From Neoarius graeffei (Eukaryota; Chordata; Actinopteri; Siluriformes; Ariidae), in NCBI RefSeq assembly GCF_027579695.1, contig NC_083578.1, positions 1,804,768 to 1,868,767 of the forward strand: a stretch of 64,000 nucleotides of DNA. The letters run 5' to 3'. The notes beneath the pieces are model-generated. The model did not search any database and was not told the origin of the DNA. It saw only the letters and a program-made list of their open reading frames with translations. Of this stretch, positions 8,966-17,485 are shown piece after piece; positions within the stretch are counted from its first letter, which is position 1; every line of letters begins with the position of its first letter. A program made the position numbers and the translations under genes.

Positions 8966-10479
8966 AGAAATAAAACAAAAGAGACTGGCTATGATATAAG
9001 AAAATTCTACAACCCAGAAACAGATGGGAGCTCCGCTTTTAGGCAGTGTCTAAATCTATATATTAACAATGTGGTAAATGGTTTTTGTCTTTCCCAGGTA
9101 TCTACAGAGAATGTTTGCAAGATCTTGTCTAATCTAAATTCGAGCAAGGCTACCAGTTTGGACCAGTTATCTCCCAAATTTGTTAAAGATGGTGCCAAGC
9201 TCATCTCTGAACCCCTTGCCCATATTCTAAATTGATCTCTTTCTTCAGGTCAAATCCCGGAAGATTTAAAGATGGCAAGAGTTATTCCACTACATAAGAA
9301 AAACAGTAAAACGGATCCTGGTAACTATCAACCTGTGTCAATCCTCTCCAACATTTCCAAATTATTTGAGAGAGTGGTGTATGACCAACTGTACCATTAT
9401 CTCTCTAATCAGAAACTCCTATATGAGTTTCAGTCAGGTTTTCGATCATCTTTCTCAACCAAAACCTGCTTGGTCTACCTTATATAAGATTGGAAAAAGA
9501 CAAAGGCAATTACATAGGGATAGTATTGCTGGACCTCCAGAAAGCCTTTGATATCGTGGACCACAGTATTCTACTTATGAAACTGGAAGCAATAGGGCTT
9601 CACAAATCAGCTATAGACTGGTTTGCCTCATACTTACAGAACAGACAGCAACATGTTGAACTGGGGAACACATTATCTGAACCAGCAAATATTACCTGTG
9701 GTGTACCCCAAGGATATCTTCTTGGTCCGCTGCTGTTCTTAGTCTATGTAAATGATATTGCCTCAGCTGCTACATGTAAATTGCTCCTATATGCAGATGA
9801 CTCAGCCCTTATTGTGGCAGACAAGAGTCCAGAGGCTATCCAACATAGACTCTCAAGGGAAACAGAATCAATCAGAGAATGGCTGATTGACAATAGGCTC
9901 TCCCTACATCTTGGCAAAACCGAGACAATTCTCTTTGCTTCAAAGAGAAAACTCGACAAAATAAATTCCATTCAGGTGCAATGTACTGGCAACAAACTTG
10001 CATGCTGCTCACATGTCAAGTATCTGAGCTTAACTTTAGACCAATCTGAATGGAGAAAGCATTGTGGATAATATAGTTAAAAAATCCAATGCTAAACTAA
10101 AATTTCTCTATCGGCAAGTAAATCATGTGACCCGAGAAACAAAGAAATTGCTCGTATCGACCCTTATTCAAAGTCACTATGACTGTGCCAGTACTTCATG
10201 GTATTCTGGGTTATCGAAAAAGTTCCAAAATAGACTACATATATCCCAGAATAAATTAATTTGGTATATTTTGAATGCACCAGCCAGAAGTCATATTGGT
10301 GCTGAGGAATTTAAGCAGGCCAATATGTTACCAGTGAGTATGCGCATTGCCCAGTTTGAAGCTTAATCTTGTTTTCAAAATTCTAAATGGTTCTGCCCCA
10401 AATTTTTTGGCCCAAGGTTTCAGTTATACAAAGGAACTCCATTCAATCAATACAAGATCTAATGCATTATCCTTGCAGA
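8966..10479 (+). mobile_element. LINE remnant B (reverse transcriptase and downstream region), broken
   Basis: Plus-strand frames encode a non-LTR reverse transcriptase: ARVIPLHKKN, NYQPVSILSN, then FRSSFSTKTC, VLLDLQKAFDIVDH, GVPQGYLLGPLLFLVYVND, and the catalytic box LLYADDSAL (about 9785-9810). The C-terminal continuation is GLSKKFQNRL and FKILNGSAPNFLAQ. The frame changes near 9488, 10050 and 10360, and stops fall after AHILN and LVYLI, so the copy is dead. It is 5'-truncated at the minisatellite edge and cut at 10480 by Tc1 element B; I see no continuation after that element. The motif style fits the CR1/L2/Rex1 group, but I do not assign a clade firmly. Confidence 0.85.
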
Positions 10480-12072
10480 TACAGTGCCTTGAAAAAGTAT
10501 TCATACGCCTTGAACTTTTTCACATTTTTCCCACCTTACAACCATGAACTTAAAAGTTTTTATTGAGATTTTATGTGATAGACCAACACAGAGTAGCACA
10601 TAATTGTGAAGTGAAACAAAAATGATAAATGGTCTTCAAAATTTTAAACAAATAAAAATCTGAAAAATGTGATGTGCTTTCGTATTCAGCCCCCCTGCGT
10701 CAATACTTTGTAGAGCCACCTTTTGCTGCAATTACAGCTGCAAGTCTTTTGTGGTATGTCTCTACCAGCTTTGCACATCTAGACACTGAAATTTTTGCCC
10801 ATTCTTCTTTGCAAAATAGCTCAAGCTCAGCCAGATTGGATGGAGAGCGTCTGTGAACAGCAATTTTCAAGTCTTGCCACCACAATGGGATTTAGGTCTG
10901 GACTTTGACTGGGCCATTCTAACACATGAATATTCTTTGATCTAAACCGTTCCATTGTAGCTCTGGCTGTATGTTTAGGGTCATTGTCTTGCTGGAAGGT
11001 GAATCTCCTTCCCAGTCTCAAGTCTTTTGCAGCCTCCAACAGGTTTTCTTCCAGGATTGCCCTGTATTTAGCTCCATCCATCTTCCCATCAACTCTGACC
11101 AGCTTCCCTGTCCCTGCTGAAGAAAAGCATCCCCATAGCATGATGCTGCCACCACCATGTTTCACAGTGGGGATGGTGTGTGCAGGGTGATGAGCAGTGT
11201 TAGTTTTCCGCCACACATAGCGCTTTGCATTTAGGCCAAAAAGTTCAACTTTGGTCTCATCTGACCAAAGCACCTTCTTCCACATGTTTGCTGTGTCCCC
11301 TACATGGCTTCTTATGCCTGTCTTTCAACAATGGCTTTCTTCTTGCCACTCTTCCAAAAAGGCCAGATTTGTGGAGTGTACGACTTATAGTTGTCCTGTG
11401 CACAGATTCTCCCACCTGAGCTGTGGATTTCTGCAGCTCCTCCAGAGTGATCATGGGCCTCTTGGCTGCTTCTCTGACCAGTGCTCTCCTTGCTCGCTCT
11501 GTCAGTTTAGGTGGACGGCCATGTCTCGGTAGGTTTGCAGTTGTGCCATACTTTTTCCATTTTTGAATGATGGATTGAACAGTGCTTCTTGAGATGTTCA
11601 GAGCTTGGGATATTTTTTTATAACCTAACCCTGCTTTAAACTTCTCCAGAACTTTATCCCTGACCTGTCTGGTGAGTTCTTTGGTCTTCATGATGCTGTT
11701 TGTTCTTCAGTGTTCTCTAACAAACCACTGAGGCCTTCACAGAACAAGTGTATTTATGCTGAGAGTAAATTACACGCAGTAGGACTCTATTAACTAATTA
11801 GACGACTTCTGAAGGCAGTTGATTGCACTGGATTGTATTTAGAGGTATCAGAGTACAGGGGGCTGAATACTAATGCACACCACATTTTTCAGATTTTTAT
11901 TTGTTTCAAATTTTGAAGACCATTTATCATTTTCGTTTCACTTCACAATTATGCGCTACTCTGTGTTGGTCTATCACATAAAATCTCAATAAAAAACTTT
12001 TAAGTTCGTGGTTGTAAGGTGGAAAAATATGAAAAAGTTCAAGGGGTATGAATACTTTTGCAAGGCACTGTA
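10480..12072 (-). mobile_element. Tc1/mariner element B, complete ends, inserted in LINE B
   Basis: TA at 10480-10481 and 12071-12072, with terminal repeats starting TACAGTGCCTTGAAAAAG on the left and the inverted GCAAGGCACTGTA on the right. The inverted repeats extend roughly 200 bp (see the CAATAAAAA... and AAAATTTTGAAGACC stretches on both sides). The transposase lies on the minus strand. Confidence 0.92.
10700..11691 (-). pseudogene. Tc1 transposase of element B, frameshifted
   Basis: From 11691 the minus strand encodes MKTKELTRQVRDKV, a helix-turn-helix (YKKISQALNISRSTVQSII) and an AT-hook-like GRPPKLTERARR. A deletion and frameshift near 11285 remove residues before [13 protein letters not shown]. 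The catalytic D, D motifs WSDETK and [11 protein letters not shown] are present. At DLNPI (near 10890) a small deletion removes the ENLW residues that carry the catalytic Glu and shifts frame into [13 protein letters not shown], ending SVSRC, RLAAVIAAKGG and STKY. At least two frame breaks plus loss of the catalytic Glu make it inactive. Confidence 0.88.
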
Positions 12073-12189
12073 TATGCCCAAACACAAATCCCCACCCACC
12101 CACCCACACACACACCCACCCACACACACACTTTAGATAAGTTGAACACATTCTTCCTTGCCTACATGCCCAAACACACGCACACTCAC

Positions 12190-12374
12190 CGGCCGATGGT
12201 GGAGCATGTTAGCGAGTCTGTAGCCACAGCTGCTTTCCTGAACATCCCAGCCTCACACTCATCCTGCTTCAGGAGCCTGACTGTGCAGATGAGGATAAGG
12301 ATGAGGATGAGGAAGATGAAGATCACAGAGAAACACACAGTCTTTCGCAGACGATCCTTCCTCCTGCGAGACAT
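12190..12374 (-). CDS. ggt5: Gamma-glutamyltransferase (GGT5-like), coding exon 1 with signal anchor
   Basis: First coding exon, 185 nt, ATG at 12374-12372. The peptide starts MSRRRKDRLRK, continues with one hydrophobic segment (about residues 13-32, rich in Ile/Leu/Phe), then FRKAAVATDSLTCSTIGR. This is the expected cytoplasmic tail, type II signal anchor and start of the ectodomain of a GGT; the family motif is close to AAVAADSKxCSxIGR. The exon ends at a GTGAGTG donor (12183-12189) after two bases of an Arg codon, which exon 2 at 187 completes. This gives an intron of about 12.0 kb, far longer than the exons and filled with mobile elements. I chose this ATG because an upstream in-frame Met would place a long hydrophobic and Pro-rich stretch before the basic tail, which is not typical. 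The exon lies just upstream of a complete hAT element (12886-16748), whose transposase is on the same strand. Confidence 0.9.
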
Positions 12375-12668: not shown

Positions 12669-12885
12669 CTGATCAGTTTCTCTACATCCTTCCTGTGACA
12701 GAAGGTATATCAACACACAACTGTACACAGTACAACATGCAGTAAAATGCTTTTTATAATGGTTTGGTGACAAAAAAAATCAGGATTTACATCAAACACA
12801 ATTTACTTTATTGAGCATAGCAGGAGAAAAAAATTTATACATATACAGAATCATATAAAAGATAGATGGCAGAAGATGTATGAAC

Positions 12886-15800
12886 CAGGGTTATAATAGT
12901 TTTGGATTTTTCAGTATAGTTTCGTTTTAGTTAGTTTTGCCTTGTAGCTCATTAGTTTTAGTTAGTTTTAGTTATTTTTTGAGCAACTACTTTAGTCTTA
13001 GTTAGTTTTAGTTTTGTCCAAAATGTTTAGTTTTAGTTTAGTTTTTATTAGTTTTAGTATTCGTTTTAGTTTTCCCATATCTTGTGAATTTGTGTAGTAC
13101 AAGATTCAAATGATCAAGTATGAAAATTAAAAGGCTTTATTTAATACAGACCATGGATAATAATGTAGGACAGAAGAATTTCCCCATTTCTCCAGAACAA
13201 CCAGAACCTGTGGCTACACGTAATCAAAATACCAACCTCAGTTGTTTAAAAAAAACAAAAAACACACTGTACTTCTGCAACACACGACTGAAAGACATTC
13301 CAAAAAGAAGCTACATTTTGGCCTGTATTATATGCGTTTATGTCTGTGACATTTACTTTGTCAAACTGTGATGCAATGAAACATAGCATCCTAAGAGCCA
13401 ACAGCCATCAAGACCTAACGTCTTCAACCAGAGGCATTCATGAGTAAACAACAAACCACTCATTTTGAATGTAAAACAAAAGGAAAAAAGTTAGTTTGTG
13501 TTCATGTCAGTGTATTGTATGTGTGTGAGATAATGTTGATTTATGTGCATCTATCCACCTGTCTTTGTCTTGTGTCCATCTCGTGTGTGTGTGTTCGTAT
13601 GCGCATGGGTGTGTGTGCTTGCGTGTGCATGATGTGCTTGCATGTGCGTGTGACCATGTGTGAACCAGTGTTATTGCGTACTGTATGCAAGTGTCAGAGA
13701 GATGAGTTTACTTGAGTAAGTCCTTGTTTATCTTCAGGAAAACTCGCTGCTCCAGAGATGTAGTCGCTCTATTCCTCAGACCAGAGGACAACAGTCCACA
13801 CACTGAGAAGATTCTCTCAACAAAGGCCTGTGAGGCAGGGGCACTGACAAGATCTAGTGCCAGAGGGGCAAGCTTTGGGTACACCGCCTCTCTGGACTGC
13901 CAGAATTTCAGTGGCTTCTCATCAGACACACCCCTTTTGACGTCATCCTCATACCTCCTTAGTTCTGCCATCAGAGATCCATACTCGGGGCCATTTTGGA
14001 AAAGTTCATTGACTTCCATACGAGTGGCAAGAAAGCGATACTTCTGGAAGACAGCACGAGCCGAAGGTGTTTCAGTTTCATTGCCAACGTCCTCCTGAGG
14101 AGTTGTTGGTGGGTTGTACTGGTTGTACTGAGCTGCCATGTTCTGAATGAAAGACTGTGCGGCCATTTTGAGTGGCACCATGTCTGGTGTCTGAAGAATT
14201 ACTGACACATTTGGATCGAGCAGGCAAGCGGCTGCTGGTGTTGCATCAAATTGTAGGGAAGCAGGGCTCAGAATGCCAGCAAAGCGCTCTCTTAAGGACT
14301 TAAGTAGCGTTTGTGCCAACGGCTTCGCAGCAACAGTAGTGGTCTGCAGGTGAGCCTCAAGGTTGAGCAAGCATGGCACTACTTGTGACAGTGACTGGCT
14401 GTCACTCTGAAGTTGGTCTGTGTGAACGGCAAAGGGCTCAAGCAACATGACCAGGTTCTCCATCTTGGACCAATCACTTGTGAGAAGTGTGTCCATGCCC
14501 AGCTCCTCCAGTACCTGGTTCAGTTCCGTTCTGATCTCCAGCAGCCTTCTCAACATGTCGAAAGTGCTGTTCCAACGTGTGCTGCAATCTCGGACCAGAG
14601 TTTTACCACACTTTTTGATCAGTGCTTCGTTTGCCAACGATGATTTCCTCACTGAGTGTACCAGCTTTCTTGCTCTTGTTAAAAGCAGATCTGTGCTTGG
14701 GTGCTTCATGGCATCTTTCAGGCTGAGCTGAAGGGTATGGGCCAGGCATGGCATCCTCTGGAATTTGCAGTCATCTGGCAGATCAAGTTCTAAGCCAAGA
14801 CATAAGAACAGACAGCACATTGAAACATTAAAATTTCAATACATTTTCATCAATCCGAATCCTTTATGTGGTTTTAGAGTTTTGTTTCACAGGAGCTGAG
14901 TAGAGTTCCACATTAAATACATTTAATATTTTATTTGTATAATTGAAGAGTTCAGATGGAAAACCTTCTACATGCTATCTCCTTGACACATTAGTTAACA
15001 ATGTTGTGTGAATCCTGTGTACATACTTAAACTGTGTACATACTTAAACGAAACCTACTACATAATTTACATACATAGATTTGAAATTGTGTTTCGCCAG
15101 ACTCCAGATATGCTCAGTGATACACAGCTCAACAACAACACACACGCCCCCGCGCGCACACACACACAAGATAAGAGACATGCCTAATAAAAACATCTTT
15201 AAAAATAAAATAAAAACCTCTCCCTACTTTGTTTAAACATTTGTTATCAAAACCCTACGTGCCACCACCCTTTGGCAGCAAGCGTCTATAGCCAAGAACA
15301 ACCAATAAAAACGTGACCAGGAGTAGCGTGGCATACTGTTCAGTACTAAGTGGTCACATCAGAGAAATGGCATCGTATTCAGAGGGAGAATTTTCGATTG
15401 TAGCGCGCGCGCACACACACACACACGTCAAGCCATTTTAGAGCATGCCACAAAACTTTTAAATAGGCTATAACTGTACTCACCAATGTCTCCACTCTCG
15501 CTGAGATCCTCCACATTCTCCTCGTCAGACTCTGGTTCATCCCACATCACGTCATCCAGGCCATCTCCAGGTTGAAGCCGTGCACTGTGTGTTGACTGCT
15601 CACTTTGATCAGGACGTCTTGCACTAAGCAGCCGCACTGCTTTTACGATGTTCGAGCCATTGTCCGTCACAACGAGCAGAACTTTGTCTCCAACAATATC
15701 CCATGCCACCATGGTCTCATCAATACAGCGAGCAATGCATTCCCCAGTGTGAGGATGGGCCAAACGATGCAAGCTTAGTAGCGTGTGGTATACCCGTCCC

Positions 15801-16748
15801 CCAGGTGGATGATAGAAACACGCTGACACACCTAGGAATGATGCAGTCAACCCCTTCTTAGTCCATCCATCTACACATAGGGTTATCTTCCTGGCATCCT
15901 TCAGTATGTCTTTCAACTTCATTTTGGCATTTCCCATCCGCCCTGCAATCAGGTTGTTCACTCGAGCAGCCCCTGGAACCTTGAACTTCGGCTCGAGTGC
16001 ATAGCTATATTGTTTGAAAGCCGGTGTCTCACAGAGTCGGGTAGACATTCCTGTATGGATAAACAAATTCACCAGAGCTTCCTCCCTCTTACAGTGTTCA
16101 TGTGTATTTACTGACCAGCTGTCTTGGCGACCTTTGAGGAAGTCGAATATTTTTGGAGTTTCCCCACTCCGTGTGCTCAGTTTGTCTGTCTCTGCTCGTG
16201 CTTCAGGAGGGCTAGCAGCTAATTGAGCCATATAGCAACTGTTAGCGTCCTTGTGGAAACTTCTCAGGTGGACTTTTAAATTTGTGGGATTTTTTCCTTT
16301 CAGCGCAGCTCCACATACATTTCCATTCTCCACCACCATACACACGCTCTTGTCCGTCTCGCATGAATATTCAAAGAAATCCCATATAGGGCTGGCGTTC
16401 CTCCTCTTAAGTTTCGCCATGCTCTGATAGCCTACTGGCTCCGCCTGATTGAAAGGTGCGGGCGCGCCCTTGAGCCAGCTGTAAACAATAGCCCCAAGGA
16501 ACCGGAATTGTCAATGGTGGTAAACGCGCTACAGTGGGTTTTTTTTTTTCATACAAAGACTAAAACGAATGGCAGTTTATCTCCAAATTCAGTTAGTTTC
16601 AATTAGTTTTGTTCACACGCATTTTAGTTTTAGTTAGTTATAGTTTTTTTATTTTAATGATCGTTTCAGTTAGTTTCCGTTAACGAAAAGTTTTTTTCCA
16701 TAATAGTTTTCGTTTTTTCGTTAGTTTTCGTTAACGATGATAACCCTG
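12886..16748 (-). mobile_element. Complete hAT DNA transposon with perfect 8-bp target duplication
   Basis: A 3,863-bp element starting CAGGGTTAT and ending ATAACCCTG, flanked by the identical 8-bp direct repeat GTATGAAC (12878-12885 and 16749-16756). The 8-bp duplication and CA...TG ends are diagnostic of hAT elements. Both sub-terminal regions (about 12890-13080 and 16550-16740) are packed with TTTTAGTTAG-type motifs in opposite orientation, probably transposase-binding sites. The interior carries one two-exon transposase on the minus strand with no stop or frameshift. All parts needed for mobility appear present. Confidence 0.95.
13708..16420 (-). CDS. hAT transposase with BED zinc finger, two exons, open
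   Basis: Exon 1 spans 16420-15484 and exon 2 spans 14789-13708. The donor at 15483 (GTGAGT) and acceptor ending CTTAG at 14790-14791 join in phase (GDI|ELDLPDD). This gives 2,019 nt, or 672 residues plus stop. Domains: a BED-type zinc finger (Cys27, Cys36, His51, His56), then the hAT RNase-H-like fold with CVDGWTKKGL (first Asp) and VVTDNGSNIVKAV (second Asp). These are followed by RMPCLAHTLQLSL and CSTRWNSTFDML in exon 2, and the C-terminal dimerisation region APASQAFVERIFSVCGLLSS, which carries the catalytic Glu. The family binds element ends and performs cut-and-paste transposition in the nucleus. Length and domains are normal and I see no disabling change. Alternative reading: a domesticated ZBED gene, but the flanking TIRs and target duplication argue for a mobile copy. 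Confidence 0.92.
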
Positions 16749-16756
16749 GTATGAAC

Positions 16757-17485
16757 TACACTCACCAGCCACTTTATTAGGAACACCCAGCCACCTGCTG
16801 TTTTCTGCGGTTCTGTAATCAGCCGATCCCTCGACAGCAGCACGACGCATCAAATCTCGCAGATACAAATCAAGAGCTTCAGTTAATGTTCACAATGTTC
16901 AAACATCAGAACGGGAAACATTGTGATCTCACAGTGTGACTTTCTTTCTCTCACTGTGGTATGGGTGTTGGTTTGATCCAGATGGACTGGTTTGAGTATT
17001 TCAGAAGCTGCTGATCTCCTGGGGTTTTCACACACAACAGTCTCTAGAGTTTACACAGAATGGTGCAGAAAACAAAAAACACTGAGTGAGTGAGCGACAG
17101 TTCTGTGGGTGGAAACAAACGCCTTGTTGATGAGAGAGGGTCAGAGGGAAATGGACAGATTGGTTCGAGCTGCCAGGAAGGATATAGTAACTCATATAAT
17201 CACTCTTTACAACTGTGGTGAGCAGAAAAGCATCTCAGCATGCAACAGCAGAAGAACACATTGGGTTCCACTCACTGCTCCCCGGGCGCTGTTAGCATGG
17301 CTGCCCACTGCTCTGGGTATGTGTGGGCATGTGTGTGTTCACTGCTTCAGATGGGTTAAACGCAGAGAGGAATTTCACAAGCATTTGATGAATAAAGTTC
17401 TTCTTCTTTTTCTTCTTCCTGCAGACAAGAACAGGGATCTTAGAATCAACAACAAGTTCCTATTAAAGTGGCCGGTGAGTGTGTA
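16757..17485 (+). mobile_element. Internally deleted Tc1/mariner element C
   Basis: The left end TACACTCACCAGCCACTTTATTAGG and the right end CTATTAAAGTGGCCGGTGAGTGTGTA are inverted repeats with TA termini. The 5' half follows the transposase region of a familiar fish Tc1 family (for example TTTGAGTATTTCAGAAGC and ACAACTGTGGTGAGCAGAAA near 17210). The catalytic domain is missing, and a SINE-like piece occupies its place (17276-17415). The hAT target site lies directly beside the left end. Confidence 0.8.
17276..17415 (+). mobile_element. SINE 3' fragment (second, non-Mermaid family)
   Basis: CTGCTCCCCGGGCGCTGTTA, then TGGCTGCCCACTGCTC, AGATGGGTTAAACGCAGAG and AATAAAGTTCTTCTTC form a familiar teleost SINE body and tail. 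The tRNA-like head is absent. It lies inside Tc1 element C. Confidence 0.6.

Follow-up and report, generated by a model that had tools for sequence, protein, structure and literature searches.

The hAT superfamily is characterized, as described in PMC3942097, by 8-bp target-site duplications and terminal inverted repeats (TIRs) of 10–25 bp. For Hermes, the housefly element (PDB 2bw3, 4d1q, 6dww, and 8edg), PMC10368747 gives the duplication consensus nTnnnnAn and names AAGT motifs. Active hAT elements are described as rare in vertebrates, and Tol2 and Tgf2 are known active hATs of fish (PMC4890040). Another family, hAT-6_XT, occurs in turtles, fishes, and a frog; it has a low copy number and a divergence of less than 1% in two turtles, was interpreted there as a case of horizontal transfer, and has published transfers into both fishes and turtles (PMC11008031).

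Here, we analyzed a hAT element in a 64,000-nucleotide stretch of the Neoarius graeffei genome (NC_083578.1, positions 1,804,768 to 1,868,767; hereafter, the window). Judged by its sequence, it is a young hAT with all structural parts in place and a Hermes-like transposase, and not a new kind of element. We assign a probability of roughly 0.93 to the reading that it is a complete autonomous-type Hermes-like hAT that was inserted by cut-and-paste and whose family multiplied recently. It resembles Hermes in the homology of the transposase (best stretch, residues 324–656), in 8-bp duplications that lean toward nTnnnnAn, and in repeated motifs close to both ends. In contrast, the sequences are distant, the gene studied here has two exons and a finger with C-x8-C spacing, and AGTTTT and AGTTAGTT stand where PMC10368747 has AAGT for Hermes. 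Likened by description, Tol2 and Tgf2 are also fish hATs with an intact transposase, and hAT-6_XT, likewise compared by description, is also a low-copy young hAT family.

Structure of the element and its target site

The element is 3,863 bp long (12886–16748, on the minus strand, which is that of the transposase gene) and is flanked by the duplication GTATGAAC at 12878–12885 and 16749–16756, with 8 of 8 bases identical. Its termini, CAGGGTTATAATAG at the left and ATGATAACCCTG at the right, have the CA...TG form of hAT ends. The TIRs (CAGGGTTAT and ATAACCCTG) match exactly over 9 bases and then continue as an imperfect extension, and only when this extension is counted is the 10-bp minimum of the superfamily attained. 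Both ends were annotated over 200 bp on the plus strand: the left (12886–13085) consists of the TIR CAGGGTTATAATAG followed by AGTTTT and TTTTAGTT subterminal repeats, and the right (16549–16748) of AGTTAGTT and AGTTTT repeats followed by the TIR ATAACCCTG. The subterminal repeats have the same orientation at both element ends, and no reverse-oriented AGTTTT, TTTTAGTT, or AGTTAGTT was found within the 200-bp ends.

When each 200-bp end was compared with its own 500 dinucleotide shuffles, AGTTTT occurred 10 times at the left (matched by 0 of 500 shuffles) and six times at the right (3 of 500). TTTTAGTT occurred six times at the left (0 of 500) and twice at the right (27 of 500), and AGTTAGTT three times at each end (17 of 500 at the left; 0 of 500 at the right). 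The enrichment is thus clear in four of the six motif–end pairs and marginal in two. A search of the literature for the terminal 14-mer found no mention of it, repeat libraries such as Repbase lying outside that search.

Another element, of approximately 725 bp (16758–17482), starts one base past the right duplication and has 27-bp inverted ends that are 93% complementary. The left part of this element is repeated in high copy number, with 2,617 first-look candidates in the genome, and the insertion point of the hAT in the window lies at the very edge of this neighboring repeat.

Transposase gene and protein

The transposase is encoded on the minus strand by two exons that together specify 672 residues and a stop, with no stop or frameshift inside. 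Exon 1 (15484–16420) covers residues 1–312 and the first base of codon 313, and contains a C-x8-C / H-x4-H BED-like finger (C27, C36, H51, and H56) and the catalytic-type residues D184 and D253. Exon 2 (13708–14789), which extends to residue 672 and the stop, contains W385, E637, and the hAT dimerization region PF05699 (residues 593–654). Downstream of the stop, still inside the element, motif matches alone mark two candidate AATAAA signals on the minus strand, at 13136–13141 and 13044.

The exons are separated by a predicted intron of 694 bp (14790–15483, minus strand; GTGAGT...TTAG), which places GT...AG borders at residue 312/313. The junction is supported by homologous sequences, because the tblastn matches of a sister family in the same genome (family B) mostly break at residues 309–313 and those of a more distant hAT family (approximately 35–42% protein identity) stop and restart near the same position. 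Both GTGAGT and TTAG are present in all six full-length copies of the element. An open frame through the intron was considered for two of the copies (L003 and L004) and was rejected, as the ATG frame stops at codon 331 in 7 of 7 copies. Part of the intron (14914–15024) matches at least 10 other genomic places at 80–85%, suggesting that it contains or donated a dispersed repeat.

The protein matches Hermes overall with an E-value of 2.3e-20, and the strong stretch covers residues 324–656; this match probably gives the fold class of the transposase. D184, D253, W385, and E637 align to Hermes residues that we take to be catalytic; the stretch that aligns D184 and D253 with two aspartates has an i-Evalue of 6.3 and is non-significant alone. 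Dimer_Tnp_hAT (PF05699) was recognized at E = 2.3e-8 (34.2 bits against a cut-off of 21.4), DUF659 (E = 3e-7) and zf-BED (E = 0.016) fell under their Pfam cut-offs, and an NCBIfam search matched no family. The four finger residues are also kept in two family B exons. By the mechanism of Hermes, binding of the transposase to the element ends would rely on the N-terminal BED-like finger of the protein and on the subterminal repeats of the DNA. Excision would be carried out by an RNase H-like DDE site, the excised element would be joined to a target cut at an 8-bp stagger, and repair would convert this stagger into the target-site duplication.

These results agree with the initial annotation, which had described an element of about 3.86 kb with CA...TG ends, identical flanking duplications, and a two-exon, 672-residue transposase without a stop or shift; the frame and its GT...AG borders were confirmed, the splicing itself being predicted. 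Its assignment of an intact hAT also held (Hermes E-value of 2e-20, exact duplications, and an open frame), and its claim of dense subterminal motifs stood for the four motif–end pairs above the shuffles and was marginal for the other two.

Copies of the family in the genome

The whole element was searched against the 2.34-Gb assembly (best 40 of 135 candidates scored), as were its left 230 bp (best 40 of 52 scored) and its right 269 bp (all eight candidates scored). The searches with the left and right ends, run apart, led to an identical set of seven places at 98–100%, and these seven copies, including that in the window (L001), constitute the young family found in the assembly. The whole-element search returned five full-length copies at 99–100%, the window copy among them, together with two further copies in two pieces each: one on contig C26, split by an insert, and one on C8, with an internal deletion. 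The next matches among those scored were at approximately 80% (82% over one 390-bp piece), along with intron pieces of up to approximately 110 bp at 80–85%. Beyond the seven copies, the best 40 of the 52 left-end candidates comprised family B at 79–80% and pieces of up to 75 bp at up to 92%, and the eight right-end candidates included one further place at 77%.

The 8-bp duplications are exact in 7 of 7 copies and all different. Against nTnnnnAn, T at position 2 is present in six of the seven, A at position 7 in five, both in four, and at least one in all seven. Buster-type elements, as opposed to Ac-type hATs, have the consensus nnnTAnnn, and the central TA was found in none of the seven copies. 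Pairwise identity over aligned bases is 99.4–100% in all 21 pairs, and L003 (contig C15) and L004 (contig C1) do not differ at any of 3,855 bases; the only match shared by their flanks (approximately 1.5 kb) is 144 bp at 71%.

The transposase frame is open in five of the six full-length copies (L003, L004, L005, the C26 copy, and the window copy) and is interrupted in L002 by a stop at residue 661. The window copy has five private substitutions among these six (ungapped columns), and at residue 213 it alone has T; A stands there in the other six copies and in both of the exon-1 sequences compared from family B. The six full-length copies vary at 16 codons, 12 of them nonsynonymous (one a stop) and four synonymous, which looks like unconstrained decay following insertion. 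L007, on C8, is without approximately element bases 248–1975, has some filler bases where the deletion lies and intact ends and duplication, and is a fresh non-autonomous derivative. No other non-autonomous derivative with the ends of the young family was found among the best 40 of 52 left-end and all eight right-end candidates.

Empty sites and nested repeats

The target of the C26 copy, with a single GTGATGAC, is uninterrupted at 12 distinct places among the window and the loci examined, six of them in the window and six in other loci, one of the latter in a SINE inside the C26 copy. The insertion of the C26 copy with a duplication of exactly 8 bp can therefore be read directly. The repeat that hosts this copy (L006/L008, approximately 28.97–28.98 Mb) resembles, on visual inspection, a tRNA-derived SINE, and a second such repeat, which adds 394 bases and has a 12-bp duplication (ATAATTGAAGAG), lies in the intron. 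The presence of this SINE inside a young copy means that it moved after, or within, the life of the young family.

The joined flanks of the window copy gave no match spanning the junction among the best 40 of 2,617 candidates. The right flank of this copy is a high-copy repeat, and 38 of the 40 scored matches were other places aligned almost wholly to the right of the junction; five of the best partial matches continued beyond it into AT-rich sequence, for no more than 31 bases. The empty sites that the initial annotation proposed to look for were found for the C26 copy (12 targets) and not, within the best 40 of 2,617, for the window copy.

Sister family and a possible mosaic history

Family B is a sister hAT family of the same genome, from which nine copies, in eleven stretches, were taken. 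It shares the plan and exon junction of the young family and has the ends CAAGGTTATAATAG, and its C28 copy, the one read at both ends, has the duplication GTGATAAC on both sides. The DNA identity between the two families is approximately 76–82% in the exon 2 region, and at the ends it is 79–80% (left) and 75–78% (right). Family B is the older of the two: its long pairwise matches are at 92–97%, and, in the tblastn matches listed, none of its nine copies has both exons stop-free.

For the selection test of the young family against family B, two family B exons chosen to be stop-free were used per half, the halves coming from different copies and the other family B copies being excluded. Exon 2 gave dN of 0.131–0.135 and dS of 0.575–0.584 (bootstrap 95% range of dS, 0.45–0.76), and exon 1 gave dN of 0.278–0.280 and dS of 1.425 (1.01–2.43). 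The dN/dS ratio is approximately 0.2 in both exons, indicating that the lineage was kept functional by purifying selection before its burst, whereas dS is approximately 2.5-fold higher in exon 1 than in exon 2. At fourfold sites, exon 2 differed at 36 of 131 and exon 1 at 43 of 80 (Fisher p = 2e-4); the other pair gave 36 of 132 and 45 of 80 (p = 4e-5).

This contrast may have arisen because related hAT lineages recombined at a breakpoint close to the intron, an event that the identities of the ends (left 79–80%, right 75–78%) fit without proving it. Alternatively, exon 2 may have been subject to a different mutation pressure or to hidden constraint. The apparent absence of copies between approximately 82% and 98%, the single young cohort of seven, and the contrast in dS together led us to a more far-reaching and rather unlikely reading, namely that this is an autonomous vertebrate hAT family that is still active and whose arrival in the lineage was recent and probably came about through horizontal transfer. 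In this reading the family is a mosaic, and its exon 2, possibly together with the left end, would have a later ancestor in common with the resident sister family than exon 1 has. Recent entry from outside would account for the identity gap, and so would regrowth of the family from one survivor. For virus-borne relatives, one scan of viral contigs with a single protein, suited to close relatives only, gave five pattern matches, none of which was confirmed.

The distant hAT family mentioned above lies on C1 at 113.8–116.3 Mb (L027–L034). Four stretches there share 9–15 kb at approximately 98%, and exon 2 copies occur as inverted pairs in two of the four; the region looks like a large duplicated array.

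Recent mobility and alternative explanations

That the family was recently mobile follows from its seven near-identical copies and the separate duplication around each of them, from the two that are 100% identical, and from the C26 target that is uninterrupted elsewhere. The initial annotation had made the window copy a candidate for recent or current activity and had held that a lack of near-identical copies would speak against this; the seven copies at 98–100%, each with its own duplication, bear out recent activity at the level of the family. If substitution rates of 1e-8 or 2.5e-9 per site and year are assumed as orders of magnitude, the lack of any difference between L003 and L004 limits the age of this pair, at the upper 95% bound, to roughly 40,000 to 160,000 years, and gene conversion could be an alternative cause of their identity.

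Taken on its own, the identity of L003 and L004 could stem from duplication of genomic segments, or of assembly segments, but the 8-bp duplications differ in all seven copies, and the flank-to-flank matches between copies are just 33–322 bp long and at most 97% alike. We regard this origin of copy identity as very improbable, and segmental duplication was ruled out by the differing duplications and flanks. Equally hard to credit is domestication of the transposase gene by the host near the GGT5-like gene described below: the open frame and the purifying selection between the families speak for it, but the ends and duplications are intact, near-identical copies exist elsewhere, and the variation within the family, with 12 nonsynonymous and four synonymous codons, is not visibly constrained. 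A much stronger competitor, to which we give slightly less than even odds, is that the family was recently mobile and is now silent, the window copy being a fixed, decaying relic. It differs from our main reading only on continued mobility. The finding of only seven copies, the stop in L002, the internal deletion of L007, and the five private substitutions of the window copy, A213T among them, all suit a silent family, but two copies identical over 3,855 bp and open frames in five of six leave little time for silencing.

Under the main reading of a complete element from a recently multiplied family, present mobility of the family is plausible, and we infer splicing, protein activity, and continued mobility as further steps from the sequence. 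With its low copy number, open frames, exact duplications, and identical pair, the family offers a good candidate for a vertebrate transposon that still works. It should be useful for studying young insertions beside genes and for tracing the spread of DNA transposons in a large genome, and its unusual point is the possible mosaic history, with far greater divergence in exon 1 than in exon 2.

Genomic neighborhood in the window

Outside the element, a first coding exon of a GGT5-like gene lies at 12189–12374 on the minus strand (low end provisional), with a membrane anchor recognized by eye. Its ATG, at 12374, is 504 bp from the left duplication, in keeping with the distance of about 0.5 kb upstream first estimated. 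A gamma-glutamyltransferase exon (PF01019) occurs at 49–186 on the same strand, and both exons presumably belong to one gene, which, judged by eye, is probably GGT5 and not a different GGT. The transposase gene shares its strand with the GGT5-like gene and is read toward it; any regulatory effect of the hAT on this gene is a guess. Elsewhere in the window, long open frames resembling Tc1/mariner-type transposases, one of 302 amino acids and stop-free, were seen by eye on the minus strand at 1466–2374 and 10827–11706, and open frames resembling pieces of LINE reverse transcriptase, also recognized by eye, lie on the plus strand at 8966–10366.
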